This document shows positions 28,045 to 45,739 of a stretch of DNA of 45,739 nucleotides, piece after piece; position 1 is the stretch's first letter, and every line of letters begins with the position of its first letter. A program made the position numbers and the translations under genes. The notes beneath the pieces are model-generated. The model saw only the letters and a program-made list of their open reading frames with translations, was not told the origin of the DNA and made no database searches. The DNA comes from a virus, in IMG/VR virus record IMGVR_UViG_3300031539_000074, positions 1-45,739 of that record; one strand, 5' to 3'.

Positions 28045-28077
28045 GACTTACCTCCGTTGTGATTGCCTTGTTAAATT

Positions 28078-28130
28078 GTGAGACTTCGGACTCACTCTGT
28101 CCTTTAACGGCCCGTAGGCCGTCCGTCAGG
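28078..28130 (-). repeat. Intergenic double-hairpin repeat, copy A
   Basis: On the minus strand ACGGCC/GGCCGT (loop TACG) is followed by GTGAG/CTCAC with an inner C-G pair. The 53-bp unit matches 29224-29276 with one difference, in a loop. It lies right after the stop of the gene 28126-28308. Confidence 0.8.
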
Positions 28131-28308
28131 AATTAATAAAATTAGTACATTCAACTACTTTACAAGTTTCGGTGTAACTATCAAATATATCAAATATATC
28201 TAATACTTCTTCGCATACCTTCTGTACTGCTGACGTGTGACTATTAGATAGAACAAAATATACTTTATTCTGTTTGCACGGTGGCATAGTGACTTTGTAG
28301 AGTTCCAT
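28126..28308 (-). CDS. Small hypothetical protein
   Basis: 60 residues, of no recognised family. It begins MELYKVTMPPCKQ, and a helix follows (SAVQKVCEEVLDIFDIF). GGGGAGAAG lies five bases before the ATG within the repeated leader described at 28310-28348. Being short, Cys-containing and in an accessory cluster gives no clue to function. Confidence 0.55.
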   Translation of the reverse strand: MELYKVTMPPCKQNKVYFVLSNSHTSAVQKVCEEVLDIFDIFDSYTETCKVVECTNFINS

Positions 28309-28309
28309 T

Positions 28310-28348
28310 GTACTTCTCCCCTATTATTGTGTGAGACTTCGGACTCAC
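28310..28348 (-). repeat. Repeated leader, copy B (hairpin plus ribosome site)
   Basis: GTGAG/CTCAC hairpin (28331-28348) followed by a spacer and GGGGAGAAG. This 39-bp block is nearly identical to that before the gene 28761-29201. It delivers the same 5' leader to two unrelated genes. Confidence 0.75.
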
Positions 28349-28536
28349 TATATGCGATCGATAATCTGTCCTGAATCAGGATATTCAGGGCTTCCCTTTA
28401 ATACTTGAGTCCACCTGACAAATGGATTGTGTTGTTCTTTTCTTTCGCACAGTTCCCTTGCTTCTTCCTCTGTGGAAAAGAGATATTCCCACGGGATCGC
28501 GTTTCTTGATATCTTAATTTGCGCAACAAACATCAT
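28348..28536 (-). CDS. Small hypothetical protein
   Basis: 62 residues starting MMFVAQIKISRNAIPWEY, probably a small alpha/beta fold; residues 21-35 form an acidic helix (STEEEARELCERKEQ). AGGAGGG lies five bases before the ATG. It is in the accessory cluster between zinc-ribbon genes. No family is recognised. Confidence 0.6.
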   Translation of the reverse strand: MMFVAQIKISRNAIPWEYLFSTEEEARELCERKEQHNPFVRWTQVLKGSPEYPDSGQIIDRI

Positions 28537-28760: not shown

Positions 28761-29201
28761 TTATTCTGTGCCCTTAAGCAGTAATGCATATTTTCGTGAC
28801 CAATCAGTATAGCCGCATTTGTGACAGTATAAGGGTTTTGATAATCCGCATTTATAATTCTGTTTTAAAAATTCGTGATCGCAATCTGCTTGACGTTCAA
28901 GTTGTTTTCGGTGGGCTTCGGTCCTTAATTCTTCCTCTGCTATATCCTCAGCGTTTTCCTCTTCTCCATATTTGATTAAATCAATGGCTTTTTTTGTGTC
29001 ATAATAATAGGTGACGTTATATTTTTTTGATGTATGATGCCATTCACAATGTCCGATTTCTTCAAGAGCTTTGCGAGCCTCTTTCTGTATACATCCGGCT
29101 TCCTGTGCTACGATTTTAACCGCCGTCGTCATTGGATAACGCCCACAGTCTTCCGCTTCAACCGCGTTGTTTGATTTTGAGTATCCATTGTATCCTGACA
29201 T
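28761..29201 (-). CDS. Hypothetical protein with C-terminal zinc ribbon
   Basis: 146 residues. Residues about 25-75 resemble a winged-helix-like fold (MTTAVKIVAQEAGC, ARKALEEIGH, then a YYYDTKKAIDLI strand). A charged helix lies at 85-105, and a C-terminal metal site includes CDHEF and CHKCGYTDW. It is preceded by the repeated leader with GGGGAGAAG five bases before ATG. DNA binding is plausible but not shown. Confidence 0.6.
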   Translation of the reverse strand: MSGYNGYSKSNNAVEAEDCGRYPMTTAVKIVAQEAGCIQKEARKALEEIGHCEWHHTSKKYNVTYYYDTKKAIDLIKYGEEENAEDIAEEELRTEAHRKQLERQADCDHEFLKQNYKCGLSKPLYCHKCGYTDWSRKYALLLKGTE

Positions 29202-29276
29202 TGTTCTTCTCCCCTATTATTGTGTGAGACTTCGGACTCACTCTGTCCTTTAACGGCCCGGAGGCCGTCCGTCAGG
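29202..29276 (-). repeat. Intergenic double-hairpin repeat and leader, copy C
   Basis: This is the full version of the element: ACGGCC/GGCCGT hairpin (loop TCCG), GTGAG/CTCAC hairpin (29224-29241) and the GGGGAGAAG leader. Its first half matches copy A (28078-28130) and its second half matches copy B (28310-28348), so it looks like the parent arrangement. Confidence 0.75.
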
Positions 29277-29575: not shown

Positions 29576-29626
29576 AAAAAAAAGACCGCCCGAAAGCCCT
29601 TTATTCATGGGCTTCTGCAGACGGTC
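29576..29626 (-). terminator. Strong intrinsic terminator of the replication operon
   Basis: Outer arms GACCG/CGGTC and inner AAGCCC/GGGCTT form a long hairpin at 29584-29626, followed on the minus strand by eight T (29583-29576). A plus-strand T run is absent beyond the hairpin, so it mainly serves minus-strand transcription from the glycosyltransferase gene. Confidence 0.9.
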
Positions 29627-29725
29627 AAAAAATAATTATTAATTTTGGCTTTTTTTATTTCTTTTTCTTCTGAAATTCGCTCATTTTTTTACAAAAGTGC
29701 GCACTTCTCATTGCGTATTATGCCG

Positions 29726-34305: not shown

Positions 34306-35597
34306 TCCAGTTCCCCCATGTGAGAAAATTCACCTTTAAAATATATCGGTATTCCACCAGTTGGGCCGTTCCTATTAGCGTCAATTATCAGTTCCCTTAC
34401 ATTATCCCATTCAATGAAGTTTGGAACCTTCACAAGCTCCTCTTTCCTTTCTTGTGATGGATTATAAACCAGCATTACAACGGTTGCATCGGCTTCCAGC
34501 ATCCCCGAATCTCTCAGGTCTGTCATTTTCGGTGCTGCATCTTCTCTGCCCTTTGCGGGTCTTGATAACTGAGAAATAATAATTATTGGTATGTTTAAAC
34601 GCTTTGCCAGCCCTTTGAGTTCATGGCTTATTTTTTCTATTTCTCGCTGCCGTCCTTCATTTCCCATGCTTGGCATAAGTTGTAAATAATCCACAATGAT
34701 TAATTTTACGCCATATAGGGATTTCATCCGTTTGGCCTTTATAAGCAGATTATCAATGTTAGATGCGCTATTATCGTCAAATATTATCTGATTGTATTTA
34801 TAAAGCGTGTCACAGGCATTTGATAAATCGGTATTGTTTTTATCTGTTAGTTTCTTCCAATGTACCGCCTGAACATCCACTTTTGCCATGCTCGCAACAA
34901 ATCTCTCTGTTATCGCCATTGCAGACATTTCAAAACTGAATATTCCCACTGGGAATCCTTTGCATGCCGCTTCCATAGCAAACTTTATTCCGAGTATACT
35001 TTTCCCGGCTTTCTTCGGGGCGCCGATTATGTATGTGTCGCCGGACTGCCAGCCATTCGTATATTTATCAAGTTTGGGTAAGCCTGTTGGTATGCCGATT
35101 ATCATTTTAGAATCATTGCGTTTGTGAATGTTTTCTAATGCCGGAAAAAGCATGTCTTGTAAAGATACAAATTCTCGTTTGTTTTCTTCGCTGCTTAGAT
35201 TTTCAAGTGCTGTAATAGTTTTGTTGATAATGTTTGCCGGGTTATCATCCTTGTTATCTGCTTTGCTTATCATGGACTGCATGATTAATTTCATTGTACG
35301 TCTTTGATATGCTTCGATAATAGCGTCACAGGTGAGGTCATTCATTGCGTCTGTATCGGTTTCTCCCTGAATACCCATGACATACAATTCGTTTATGTGA
35401 TCTTGCTGCCCAAGTTGTTTCATCACGGTCATACTGTTTATGGGCGTTCCCTGTTTGTATAGTTCTCTCATGGCCGAAAATATCAAACGATACTTAGGCT
35501 TATCAAACATTACAGCATTGAGCTTACCACAACTGTATGCTAATGCACTACCCGGTAACATCATTTCACAGAGAACCTTTCGCTCGTATTCGCTCAT
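34302..35597 (-). CDS. dnaB: Replicative DNA helicase, DnaB-like
   Basis: 431 residues. An N-terminal helical domain (residues 1-105) binds primase in this family. The RecA-like ATPase domain has Walker A GAPKKAGKS (192-200), FSFEMS (220-225), Walker B LIIVDYLQL (299-307) and the IISQLSRPAKGR motif. The C-terminal ANRNGPTGG is the usual arginine-finger region. It unwinds the fork. It is coupled to the O-like initiator by ATGA, so this phage loads its own helicase and uses host polymerase. Confidence 0.95.
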   Translation of the reverse strand: MSEYERKVLCEMMLPGSALAYSCGKLNAVMFDKPKYRLIFSAMRELYKQGTPINSMTVMKQLGQQDHINELYVMGIQGETDTDAMNDLTCDAIIEAYQRRTMKLIMQSMISKADNKDDNPANIINKTITALENLSSEENKREFVSLQDMLFPALENIHKRNDSKMIIGIPTGLPKLDKYTNGWQSGDTYIIGAPKKAGKSILGIKFAMEAACKGFPVGIFSFEMSAMAITERFVASMAKVDVQAVHWKKLTDKNNTDLSNACDTLYKYNQIIFDDNSASNIDNLLIKAKRMKSLYGVKLIIVDYLQLMPSMGNEGRQREIEKISHELKGLAKRLNIPIIIISQLSRPAKGREDAAPKMTDLRDSGMLEADATVVMLVYNPSQERKEELVKVPNFIEWDNVRELIIDANRNGPTGGIPIYFKGEFSHMGELE

Positions 35598-36361
35598 TCG
35601 TCTTCCTCTCCAAGTATTTTTAAACCTATTCTTAAATCTGCTTTTGTCATGCCGTTCATATCTGTAAAGTTAGTTAATGGAGTTGCCTCGTCTACAAACT
35701 TTGACAATCCTCTTTGTAGAAAATCCTCCATTGGCCATTTATGAGAAAAATAATGGCCTGATGAGTTTACAACATATGCGTAATTATCCATAGCCTTAAT
35801 TATTTCTTCTTTTGTGTAATCCTTGATTGCTGCTCTTATTTTTGTCTTTTGCTTCTCTGTGAGTTTTTTGTGAATGATAATTTTAAGAGAGTTCCAATGT
35901 TCATACAAAGGGGTATATATATTTTCTTTTGTAATAGTTTCTTTTGTTAAGTTTCTTTTGTGTGCCCCTGTACAGGTTACTTTATAACCTGAATTGGTTA
36001 CTTTGTTACCAGTAGAGGTTACTGTAACCTGTTTAGGTAACTCCCTCCATTGCGTGTATGTCTTATTAAAAGCTATTTTGTAACCTGAATTGGTTACTAT
36101 ATTTCTTTCCTTTAATTCTTTTAGTGTTCTATTTACGTGTTGTTTTCTAAGTCCTGTTAATTCAACAAATTGCTTATTGCTTATCCAATCTTCTTTTTTG
36201 TGCCAGCCGTATGTTTTACGCCATATAGCCCATAATATTCGTGATTGATATGAAGATAGATTTGTTCTCATTAAAGCCTCTGCTATTTCATTTGCAATGT
36301 CGATATGTCCGTTCTCCGCCTGAGGTGACACTCCCCCTTGTATCCCCGTCCCGTTATCCAT
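35594..36361 (-). CDS. Replication initiator, phage O-like with winged helix
   Basis: 255 residues. Residues about 20-105 form a winged-helix domain of the Phage_rep_O type (NEIAEALMRTNLSSYQSRILWAI, RKTYGWHKK, ISNKQFVELTG). The C-terminal part contains helices that would contact helicase. Its gene holds a cluster of GGTTAC/GTAACC repeats at 35975-36097, as lambda O carries its own origin. It is the first gene after the leader RNA 36376-36482. Confidence 0.8.
   Translation of the reverse strand: MDNGTGIQGGVSPQAENGHIDIANEIAEALMRTNLSSYQSRILWAIWRKTYGWHKKEDWISNKQFVELTGLRKQHVNRTLKELKERNIVTNSGYKIAFNKTYTQWRELPKQVTVTSTGNKVTNSGYKVTCTGAHKRNLTKETITKENIYTPLYEHWNSLKIIIHKKLTEKQKTKIRAAIKDYTKEEIIKAMDNYAYVVNSSGHYFSHKWPMEDFLQRGLSKFVDEATPLTNFTDMNGMTKADLRIGLKILGEEDE
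35975..36097. other. Candidate replication origin: iteron cluster inside the initiator gene
   Basis: GGTTAC or its complement occurs at 35975-35980, 35996-36001, 36005-36010 (GTTACC), 36017-36022, 36024-36029, 36036-36041 (GGTAAC), 36080-36085 and 36092-36097. Several pair as palindromes, for example GGTTAC-T-GTAACC. A T-rich tract at 35905-35965 lies beside it and could be the unwinding site. In lambda, O binds such repeats within its own gene. Confidence 0.6.
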
Positions 36362-36375
36362 TACTCACCAGCTCC

Positions 36376-36482
36376 TGACATAAAAAAATGGCTGAATACC
36401 GGAGCGTAAACCCTGCGAAGGACTTTAAACCGATAAACAGCCATTATAATTGTCATATTGAACATCCTTCGCAGTCTACGCT
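36376..36482 (-). ncRNA. Pseudoknotted leader RNA, copy 1 (upstream of the O-like initiator)
   Basis: On the minus strand stem P1 AGCGTA (36482-36477) pairs with TACGCT (36408-36403), and P2 CTGCGAAGGA (36474-36465) pairs with TCCTTCGCAG (36422-36413). Interleaved with these, TGACA (36455-36451) pairs with TGTCA (36380-36376), AATGGCTG (36445-36438) with CAGCCATT (36394-36387), and TATCGG (36435-36430) with CCGGTA (36402-36397). The P1 3' arm abuts the TATCGG partner without a gap. A run of T follows the CAGCCAT arm and a ribosome site follows TGTCA. The predicted transcript start is at 36482. Confidence 0.75.
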
Positions 36483-36488
36483 TTAACT

Positions 36489-36517
36489 AAGATAGTGATA
36501 AAAGCGAAAATTGTCAA
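36489..36517 (-). promoter_or_regulatory. Promoter of the replication operon
   Basis: Minus-strand TTGACA (36517-36512), 17 bp, TATCTT (36494-36489). The -35 overlaps the stop of the small HTH gene. The expected start, about seven bases past the -10, coincides with the first base of the leader RNA stem. Confidence 0.85.
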
Positions 36518-36693
36518 CTGTTATTATCAATTTCTTTCTGCTGGTTTTTCCGTTTAAATATAAAGTGTGAGATTGTTTGACGGCTAACGCTGAAACGCTC
36601 TGCTATGTACCTTCGTTTAACGCCCTGAGTATGTAGTAGCCATATCTTATCTTTTTCTCTGTCAGTCAACTTGTAAGATGTTTGGTAACTCAT
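36514..36693 (-). CDS. Small helix-turn-helix protein
   Basis: 59 residues from ATG 36693. LTDREKDKIWLLHTQGVKRRYIAERFSVS RQTISHFIF is a resolvase or Hin-type helix-turn-helix: GVKRRYIAE, a turn, then VSRQTISHF as the recognition helix. AGGAGCGC precedes the ATG. It is the last gene before the replication promoter, and its stop overlaps the -35, so it may regulate that promoter. Confidence 0.65.
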   Translation of the reverse strand: MSYQTSYKLTDREKDKIWLLHTQGVKRRYIAERFSVSRQTISHFIFKRKNQQKEIDNNS

Positions 36694-41426: not shown

Positions 41427-42359
41427 TTATTGGTTATGTCGTTTTTCTGCGGCTATACGATCAGCTTCTAACGATTCTCGATCAAATAATCCGGGCTGGG
41501 TAACGCTGTCGCCGGGGTCTGACATGACCATACCATCGGTCTTTGTATTACAATGAGTTACATCATTTTCTGTGTCTAAATCGGCCATACAAGGACCGTC
41601 GCCCGTTGTGGTATCTGTAGTCTCTTCATCTGCCGGTGTCTTATTTTCAAGCTCTTGCATTTTGATTTCCATTGCCTTGTCGAGAGGAATATAAGGTTGT
41701 TCTAATTCTGTGTGTTTGTCTAACGATTCGATGGTGTTAGAAAGCTCCTCTGACATCGGGAATAGCTTACACAGCCTGCGGACGGCTGACTTCATAGCCA
41801 TCTGGTCAGGCCATTTCTTCCATACATAATCCTGTTTTGCACATCCTTTTATTTTCTCGATGTCATCCGAATATAGAATTACATTACGTTCACCGCCCGC
41901 TTTATAGATTGCCTTTGCATAAGCACCTATCATCTTGCCCCGTTCTTTATTAAGCGGGCATGGACTATGAGTAATCTTATCGCTATTGAGATCAATGTTA
42001 TCGTTTGCATATATAGCTTTTGCATCAACAAAGGCAATGTCGTCATTATTTCTCAGAATAACATCTACAAAGCCTCTGTATTCAACACATAATTCAGCTT
42101 TATTACCATAGGCAATTATACACAACTGACCCTTTGATTTTGTAAAATCGAGTTTGAGTATTACCGCTTCCAATAAGCACTTGACAAGGCTATTCGGTGA
42201 ACATTTTAAAAGTTCTGAATTTAACGAAAGATATATTAGATATGAATCAATTACTTGTGGAGCTTGCGGGTATTTATCAAAGCGTTCCTGTTGCAATTCT
42301 ATCTCATTTTTAACCTCTATTATATCTTCTTTATAGCGTTTAACGATCTGCTCATTCAT
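41427..42359 (-). CDS. recT: RecT-like single-strand annealing protein
   Basis: 310 residues. Conserved RecT features: LLKCSPNSLVKCLLEAVILKLDF near residue 55, LCIIAYGNKAELCVEYRGFVDVILR, and KWPDQMAMKSAVRRLCKLFP near 200. The C-terminal 90 residues are low-complexity Asp/Thr. The protein pairs with the exonuclease (43387-44223) for recombination. It is the first gene after the leader RNA 42409-42511. GGGGGAG precedes the ATG. Confidence 0.9.
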   Translation of the reverse strand: MNEQIVKRYKEDIIEVKNEIELQQERFDKYPQAPQVIDSYLIYLSLNSELLKCSPNSLVKCLLEAVILKLDFTKSKGQLCIIAYGNKAELCVEYRGFVDVILRNNDDIAFVDAKAIYANDNIDLNSDKITHSPCPLNKERGKMIGAYAKAIYKAGGERNVILYSDDIEKIKGCAKQDYVWKKWPDQMAMKSAVRRLCKLFPMSEELSNTIESLDKHTELEQPYIPLDKAMEIKMQELENKTPADEETTDTTTGDGPCMADLDTENDVTHCNTKTDGMVMSDPGDSVTQPGLFDRESLEADRIAAEKRHNQ

Positions 42360-42408: not shown

Positions 42409-42511
42409 TGACATAAAAAAGCAGCACATCGGGTGCGATAGACTCAGAGAGGTCTGTCCGATATACTGCTTTGTGAATGTCATAAAAATCCTCTCTGTTT
42501 ATCTATCGCAC
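42409..42511 (-). ncRNA. Pseudoknotted leader RNA, copy 2 (upstream of recT)
   Basis: On the minus strand P1 GTGCGATAG (42511-42503) pairs with CTATCGCAC (42441-42433), and P2 CAGAGAGG (42497-42490) pairs with CCTCTCTG (42452-42445). Interleaved, TGACAT (42482-42477) pairs with ATGTCA (42414-42409), AAAGCAG (42472-42466) with CTGCTTT (42424-42418), and ATCGG (42462-42458) with CCGAT (42432-42428). Between the last two, TAT and GTG pair with two G-U wobbles. As in copy 1, P1 abuts CCGAT directly, and a T run leads into the ATGTCA arm. The predicted start is about 42509-42511. Confidence 0.75.
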
Positions 42512-42515
42512 TTAT

Positions 42516-42544
42516 AAAATACAACATTTATTCCGTTATGTCAA
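42516..42544 (-). promoter_or_regulatory. Promoter of the recombination/modification operon
   Basis: Minus-strand TTGACA (42544-42539), 17 bp, TATTTT (42521-42516). The -35 lies inside the last codons of the upstream gene. The start is expected at about 42509, the base of the leader RNA stem. Confidence 0.8.
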
Positions 42545-45164: not shown

Positions 45165-45739
45165 TCAATATTCTAATGCTTCTTTTTTTGTTACAAAATA
45201 ATGTATGCCATGCGAGCACTCTATTTTATAATCGGGGTCATACGAATCGGGTATAACTGTTTTGCCAACTTGGTACACAAAATCAGATTGATGTTGTCCA
45301 TAACACATATCAATATTAATGCCTTCCTTATTCCATATAGCCAATATTTTAGCTTCCGATGCTCGGCATTTGCGCCCAACTATTGATGATGTGCGTTTGG
45401 CTGATTTGGGTATAAAAAGTTTTATCAGACAATTATTGCTACCTTTTTTCCATGCAATAAACTTACCTTCTTCCGGGCAAATAAAGAAATTAGGCCATTT
45501 TGTGTATTCATCTTCTTTGGCTCCCCTGAGGTCGGCTCCATAGAGATTTGCTCCATTGAGATCGGCTCCAATGAGGGTGGCTCTCTTGAGATTTGCTCCA
45601 TTGAGATTTGCTTCATTGAGGGTGGCTTCATTGAGGTTGGCTCCATAGAGGGTGGCTCTCTTGAGATTTGCTCCCCTGAGGTCGGCCCCAATGAGTTTGG
45701 CTCCCCTGAGTATGGCTCCCCTGAGGTTGGCTCCACTGA
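45165..45739 (-). CDS. Pentapeptide-repeat protein, C-terminal part (continues from 1-543)
   Basis: Read in the frame set by 1-543, this part holds the last pentapeptides ([15 protein letters not shown]), then about 116 residues of globular domain. That domain contains [50 protein letters not shown] and [15 protein letters not shown]. This is the layout of the DUF5758-type domain found C-terminal to pentapeptide repeats in other phages. The stop is TGA at 45165-45167. The domain's role is unknown. Confidence 0.85.
45654..45739. repeat. 86-bp terminal direct repeat identical to 1-86
   Basis: The last 86 bases equal the first 86 exactly, and merging them keeps the pentapeptide frame. It most likely marks an assembly overlap of a circular or circularly permuted genome. 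The same sequence also occurs internally at 211-296, so the closure could be off by one repeat block. Confidence 0.9.

Follow-up and report, generated by a model that had tools for sequence, protein, structure and literature searches.

Interleaved, ORF-bearing leader RNAs upstream of phage repO-like genes as possible translation-gated attenuators

The window analyzed here, a 45.7-kb viral record with its main genes on the minus strand, carries two copies of a predicted interleaved RNA fold, copy 1 before a repO-like replication initiator gene and copy 2 before a RecT-like gene. Other viral contigs and an Omnitrophota genome show the same topology, made of wholly different bases, ahead of their repO-like genes. 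We propose, at a probability of about 0.45, that each copy is a promoter-proximal, translation-gated pseudoknot attenuator with a translated leader, which would belong to repO and have been duplicated in the window before recT. Such an element would probably be an RNA gate of a new kind for phage DNA replication, bringing together three controls (promoter, leader translation, and terminator-like pseudoknot) at the gene that initiates it. It would also constitute a structured RNA class invisible to sequence-based RNA family searches, which miss it because only the topology, the phasing with the +1, and the open reading frame (ORF) are kept. More than a dozen natural variants are available for testing control of a terminator from the 5′ end.

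Structure of the two leaders

Copy 1 (36376-36482) and copy 2 (42409-42511) form the same interleaved fold of about 105 nt on the transcribed (minus) strand, on which all leader features described below lie. The promoter of copy 1, TTGACA-17-TATCTT (−35 hexamer at 36512-36517, −10 hexamer at 36489-36494), ends 6 nt before helix P, and the chance of a promoter this near P is 0.003 in shuffles. The 5′ arm of P (36465-36482) is composed of P1 (36474-36482) and P2 (36465-36473), the latter containing the Shine-Dalgarno sequence GAAGGA of the leader ORF, and the 3′ arm (36403-36422) of P2′ (36414-36422), a GG bulge (36412-36413), and P1′ (36403-36411). The helix is thus AGCGUAGAC/GUUUACGCU (9 bp), the GG bulge, and UGCGAAGGA/UCCUUCGCA (9 bp). 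Helix A, AAUGGCUGUUUAUCGG/CCGGUAUUCAGCCAUU with two U·U mismatches, has its 5′ arm (36430-36445, AAUGGCUGUUUAUCGG) inside the loop of P and its 3′ arm (36387-36402) directly abutting P1′. A U7 run (36382-36388) forms a terminator-like end of A and also encodes Phe-Phe of the leader ORF.

In copy 2, the promoter TTGACA-17-TATTTT (−35 hexamer at 42539-42544; −10 hexamer at 42516-42521) ends 4 nt before P. Here the 5′ arm (42490-42511) contains P1 (42501-42511) and P2 (42490-42497, with the leader-ORF Shine-Dalgarno sequence GAGAGGA), and the 3′ arm (42433-42452) contains P2′ (42445-42452) and P1′ (42433-42443), giving GUGCGAUAGAU/GUCUAUCGCAC (11 bp) and CAGAGAGG/CCUCUCUG (8 bp). Helix A, AAAGCAGUAUAUCGG/CCGAUGUGCUGCUUU, has 15 contiguous pairs; its 5′ arm (42458-42472, AAAGCAGUAUAUCGG) again lies within the P loop, its 3′ arm (42418-42432) again abuts P1′, and the helix runs into U6 (42415-42420).

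These features bear out much of what a sequence-only reading of this DNA had proposed, namely a pseudoknotted leader on the minus strand at the +1 of two promoters, extending from the predicted start to a T run, with a gapless junction between the 3′ arms of P and A; the junction is 0 nt in both copies. That reading also confined the G-U wobbles to the minus strand, and the non-Watson-Crick pairs in the helices of that strand are indeed three G-U and no A-C in each copy. Its claim of covariation between the copies holds in part. The P and A arms differ in their bases between the copies and still pair in each, while the outermost “A1” pairing (UGACA/UGUCA) is identical in both, therefore supplies no covariation, and is perhaps not a real helix. 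Evaluated without the pseudoknot, the folds have z-scores of −3.35 (copy 1) and −3.42 (copy 2); under the pseudoknot constraint, the observed score was reached by 2 of 2000 dinucleotide shuffles for copy 1 and by 0 of 2000 for copy 2.

The earlier reading had further placed P1, P2, and all of A in a single pseudoknot. The combined P1 and P2 helix of the window copies (18-19 bp) and the full A helix are probably unable to coexist, because a loop of 5-7 nt would need to span 18-19 bp. By the same geometry, P1 (about 10 bp) and A could coexist, with 14-17 nt left as loop. P2, where the leader ORF has its ribosome site in each copy, should compete with the inner part of A, since the 5-7-nt loop cannot span a P helix extended by P2. 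Across the members of the class described below, P1 mostly has 8-13 bp, the loop spanning it is mostly 12-26 nt long, and P and A are joined by 0-3 nt, dimensions that would permit a stacked P1/A pseudoknot. At 25-33 nt, the loop of A exceeds that of typical intrinsic terminators, and a simple terminator scan of the window made no call at the A helix and its U6-7; runs of U5-8 are found in several relatives.

The gene downstream of copy 1 (35594-36361, minus strand) matches replication initiator profiles (phrog_277, 9.3e-31; PF04492, 5.8e-31), and the next gene after this O-like initiator encodes a DnaB-like helicase. Copy 2 precedes a gene for a RecT-like annealing protein (41427-42359, minus strand; phrog_148, 5.4e-42; PF03837), with a YqaJ/RecE-like exonuclease gene upstream.

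A search of the window against Rfam release 15 gave no matches at gathering scores, and its low-threshold matches were unrelated eukaryotic families. Among 32 related loci, no leader matched; four loci have matches away from the leaders, to HEARO (L224) and c-di-GMP-I (L280, L282, and L294). This agrees with the earlier statement that the RNA belongs to no recognized class. The riboswitch that had been offered as one explanation finds no conserved sequence in these leaders able to form an aptamer.

Recurrence of the fold upstream of repO-like genes

The sequence-only reading had named a search for homologues as one means of refuting the fold, and the topology does recur upstream of related repO genes. 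A RepO protein profile yielded 80 viral loci, later extended to a set of 108 (viral and genomic) that was analyzed with an improved stem finder. The loci are metagenomic, with repO starts set by alignment, and the fold scores come from a simple purpose-written pairing model with thresholds calibrated on shuffles rather than on known pseudoknots. Scores of at least 50 were obtained for 12 of all 136 loci against 0.03 expected from shuffles. Within the 108-locus set the counts were 10 at 50 or above (0.03 expected) and 12 at 45 or above (0.30 expected), and in a held-out set of 28 loci, fetched later and unused in setting the rules, four reached at least 45 (0.08 expected). When A-C pairs were allowed and G-U pairs forbidden, the loci at or above 50 in the 108-locus set fell from 10 to 4, as expected for an RNA of the leader strand. 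Choosing members by score biases some counts, such as that of G-U pairs, and for this reason the A-C rule and a held-out set were applied.

The leaders have no alignable positions across members. Helix P is, for example, UGGACACAGU/GCUGUGUCCA in L157 and GCCAUGCAAGA/UCUUGCAUGGC in L178, where A ends in GGGGGG, and helix A of L197 is CGGUCGCCC-UUUUUG. Most members have U-rich sequence after A, including U8 in L273 and U5 in L197, and the U-run is weak or displaced in L157, L204, and L180. The total length from P to A is nearly constant (94-116 nt in most members). Of 15 leaders, 9 have a sigma70 promoter that matches the consensus at 9 or more of 12 positions and lies 2-9 nt ahead of P, compared with 0.22 expected from shuffles. 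Given this phasing, what defines the class is its start, where transcription opens with the bases of the first arm.

In a blind scan of both strands of 16 whole viral records and the window, the repO leaders and both window copies take most of the top ranks for fold plus promoter, interspersed with unrelated repeats; high scores also occur at some repeat-rich places that lack a promoter. The scan of the 16 records found no second leader copy and no free-standing copy away from repO, and a copy ahead of recT is known to date from the window only; a search for RecT in the same records, run without a positive control, gave no matches. The repO genes of Lambda, Firmicutes, and Acinetobacter lie close behind another gene and have no comparable leader. 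When either copy was compared by DNA similarity with 50,697 phage records, only unrelated fragments were returned. The letters shared by the two copies, ATGACA...TTTTTATGTCAG(G), were considered as a conserved core, and pattern scans of viral and genome contigs gave chance matches with no second structure; judged by these scans, the shared letters are not the conserved feature. Control by an antisense RNA was likewise considered and set aside. Of 15 leader regions, 7 have antisense promoter-like sites, whose position varies from leader to leader, in a promoter scan that cannot itself exclude an antisense RNA.

Leader ORFs

In copy 1, GAAGGA in the 5′ arm of P is followed by an ATG and 31 codons that cross the whole fold (MTIIMAVYRFKVLRRVYAPVFSHFFMSGAGE; 36361-36456) and end in a TAA that overlaps the start codon of repO (TAATG). 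The ORF of copy 2, opened by GAGAGGA-ATG, has 27 codons across the fold (MTFTKQYIGQTSLSLSHPMCCFFMSGG; 42400-42483), and its TAA is followed after 1 nt by the ATG of a 7-codon ORF and then by recT. Neither the leader ORFs nor the wider class figured in the sequence-only reading. An ATG or GTG ORF crosses the entire fold in 12 of 17 leaders, which had been pre-chosen for their fold, against 3.3 expected from shuffles of the same leaders. L204 and L203 also have fold-crossing ORFs that fall outside the limits of this test, the latter judged by eye. The leader ORFs are 27-43 codons long and stop at or near the start of the next gene; besides the overlap in copy 1, the stop lies within 15 nt of the rep start in L204, L157, L181, L180, and L189.

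In five members the start codon falls exactly at the +1, 6 nt after the −10 hexamer (ATG in L178, L181, L197, and L204; GTG in L186), and the pattern looks similar in L157 (ATG, weak −10), L059, and L366. The ORF that begins at the +1 ends early in L197, L186, and L273, where an ORF crossing the fold needs a second, weaker start. The same five members (L178, L181, L197, L204, and L186) provide predicted examples of small ORFs that are leaderless within a phage leader.

No sequence is common to the leader peptides of the different members, and it is therefore likely that the act of translation, rather than the peptide product, is what matters. The leader may also be translated without regulating anything. 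Assignment of the leader peptide to a known family was tried and had no support from Pfam, NCBIfam, or tblastn, and PF10554 did not match the window in a search that was equally silent in control genomes.

A possible translation-gated attenuator

If the leaders act as attenuators, the ribosome site of the leader ORF would still be free while the polymerase is within the first ~70 nt. A ribosome loading in time would trail the polymerase and hold P and A open, transcription would pass the U-run, and the ribosome, on reaching the leader stop on top of the repO start, could re-initiate on repO. With no ribosome, the 5′ end would pair with the freshly made 3′ arm of P and hide the ribosome site; after P had closed, A would shut behind it and transcription would end at the U-run. 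The replication gene, and the recombination gene by way of the second copy, would be expressed only when translation keeps up. What the sequence supplies for such a gate is a predicted +1 at the 5′ arm of P, helices P and then A that can fold, a U-run, and an ORF that stops at or next to the following start; from these we infer termination, translation, and the link between them.

Attenuation was one of four guesses made in the sequence-only reading, and it fits best, since A leads into a U-run shortly ahead of the gene and other terminator-bearing leaders are found at related repO genes. In particular, the different leader of related Omnitrophota repO genes, with its promoter and strong terminator, makes repO attenuation plausible in this group. 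A more specific version, which we put forward tentatively, is a kinetic gate on ribosome availability. The 5′ arm, often with a leaderless start codon at the +1, would close a pseudoknot with the loop of the terminator, and transcription of the replication gene would require that a ribosome capture the 5′ end by the time the polymerase is ~70 nt along, with the fold kept and the sequence free to vary across phages of little-known bacteria.

In the trp and his attenuators a translated leader and a terminator precede the gene, and in pT181 the Rep leader has a terminator before the gene in a countertranscript-driven attenuator. The phage leaders would resemble the trp/his type in having a leader ORF that is probably translated, and pT181 in leading a rep gene, if their terminator-like end acts as a terminator. 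Unlike these systems, they lack a mutually exclusive terminator and antiterminator that share one arm, and the alternative pairing is instead a helix with the loop of the terminator. Also unlike the trp/his type, no run of regulatory codons is seen in the phage leader peptides.

Alternative explanations

The near-constant length of the fold, the kept structure with unkept sequence, and the 5′ and 3′ ends locked in P and in A with its U-run would all suit a stable, stand-alone small RNA of ~100 nt, possibly acting in trans, for example on a replication or host factor, with repO and recT merely downstream and expressed by read-through or from other promoters. We consider this unlikely, as an ORF crossing the fold and stopping at the repO start would be unexpected for a non-coding RNA, there is no common sequence for a shared target, and the leader is always right before repO in the records scanned. 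A purely translational switch, slightly less likely again, would have the pseudoknot activate or block the downstream start, with leader-peptide translation setting the fold and no termination involved, as for RepZ/RepA of I-complex plasmids. In such plasmid Rep systems the switch is set by an antisense RNA, leader translation is coupled to the rep start, and the pseudoknot lies beside the rep ribosome site. Control by leader peptide and pseudoknot is described for IncI-alpha ColIb-P9 RepY/RepZ, IncB, and R1 tap-repA (PMC10286972), and a passage of PMC10724649 cites Asano and Mizobuchi (1998) for control of the RepY/RepZ type. The phage leaders share with them a short leader ORF (needed there for initiator synthesis) whose stop lies on or near the rep start, a leader pseudoknot, and a replication initiator as the downstream gene. 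They differ in having no consistent antisense promoter in the promoter scan, in using the transcript’s own 5′ end as the first arm, and in a second helix that ends in a U-run, and the two groups have no sequence relation. The U5-8 that follows A in many members would be needless for a switch of this type.

Placement of P at the predicted +1 in most members, and conservation of shape rather than sequence, could also reflect a protector that shields the mRNA from 5′-dependent decay. This is improbable given that a simple 5′ hairpin would suffice, and a protector would give no account of the U-run, of the ORF, or of a second helix that abuts the first. Antitermination by HK022 put RNAs acts through the zinc-binding domain of the RNA polymerase beta′ subunit. 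A put-like RNA, which would bind RNA polymerase and allow passage of downstream terminators, had been suggested earlier, and the window does resemble HK022 in having two structured RNAs, each just 3′ of an early promoter (PMC9378689). The architecture does not agree with this, and we regard the suggestion as highly improbable: putL and putR are ~70 nt, form two stem-loops, act on RNA polymerase, and have similar sequences (PMC9378689), whereas the window leaders are ~105 nt, with interleaved helices, an ORF, a terminator-like U-run end, and arm sequences that vary freely between copies and phages. It would be just as surprising if the helices were chance pairings or DNA elements, such as interleaved inverted repeats serving as origin or protein sites. 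Inverted repeats do occur near origins and the region precedes repO, but G-U pairs on one strand, phasing with the +1, the leader ORF, the additional copy ahead of recT, and near-zero shuffle expectations are difficult to reconcile with either.

Host group and other features of the loci

Of 193 genomes sampled from the phylum of an Omnitrophota bacterium, 17 matched the RepO profile at E ≤ 0.001, with a best value of 1e-50. Matches at E ≤ 1e-10 were found in 6 of 132 genomes of a Zixibacteria sample and 1 of 201 of a Chloroflexota sample, and 5 of 297 genomes in the Desulfatirhabdium phylum matched at E ≤ 0.001. The Omnitrophota locus L273 has the full arrangement, with TTGACA-17-TAGCAT, P at the +1, and a GC-rich A followed by U8. 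Omnitrophota, an almost uncultured phylum, is indicated as a likely host group of this phage family.

Eight other Omnitrophota loci carry a different, sequence-conserved repO leader with its own promoter and strong terminator. This second leader is present upstream of the repO-like gene in L276, L279, L280, L282, L293, and L294, and less clearly in L278 and L298. Its layout is a promoter, ACAGTCCTATTGGAAAAACC, then GGGGCTGGT...GCCAGCCCC and U5-7, in which CAGYCC is able to pair with GGGGCTG of the terminator stem in the style of an antiterminator and terminator. It has no match in Rfam. The c-di-GMP-I riboswitches of L280, L282, and L294 lie ~1 kb or less from the repO-like genes.

Several other features of the window were observed. 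Its first and last 86 bases (1-86 and 45654-45739) are identical and lie within a pentapeptide-repeat gene that spans both ends. A circular or circularly permuted record is the probable reason, and an artefact of repeat-driven assembly a possible one. An intergenic repeat of up to 65 nt and ~90% identity occurs directly upstream of small genes at 28066-28130, 28295-28349, and 29188-29276. It contains the hairpins ACGGCC...GGCCGT and GTGAG...CTCAC, does not match Rfam, and is possibly another leader element. A TTGACA-17-TATATT promoter without a pseudoknot leader follows a strong canonical intrinsic terminator at 29576-29640 (minus strand), where the early block of genes is separated from the late one. 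Finally, an ORF of ~57 aa resembling a helix-turn-helix protein (36518-36691, minus strand) ends on the −35 hexamer of copy 1 and is a candidate regulator.
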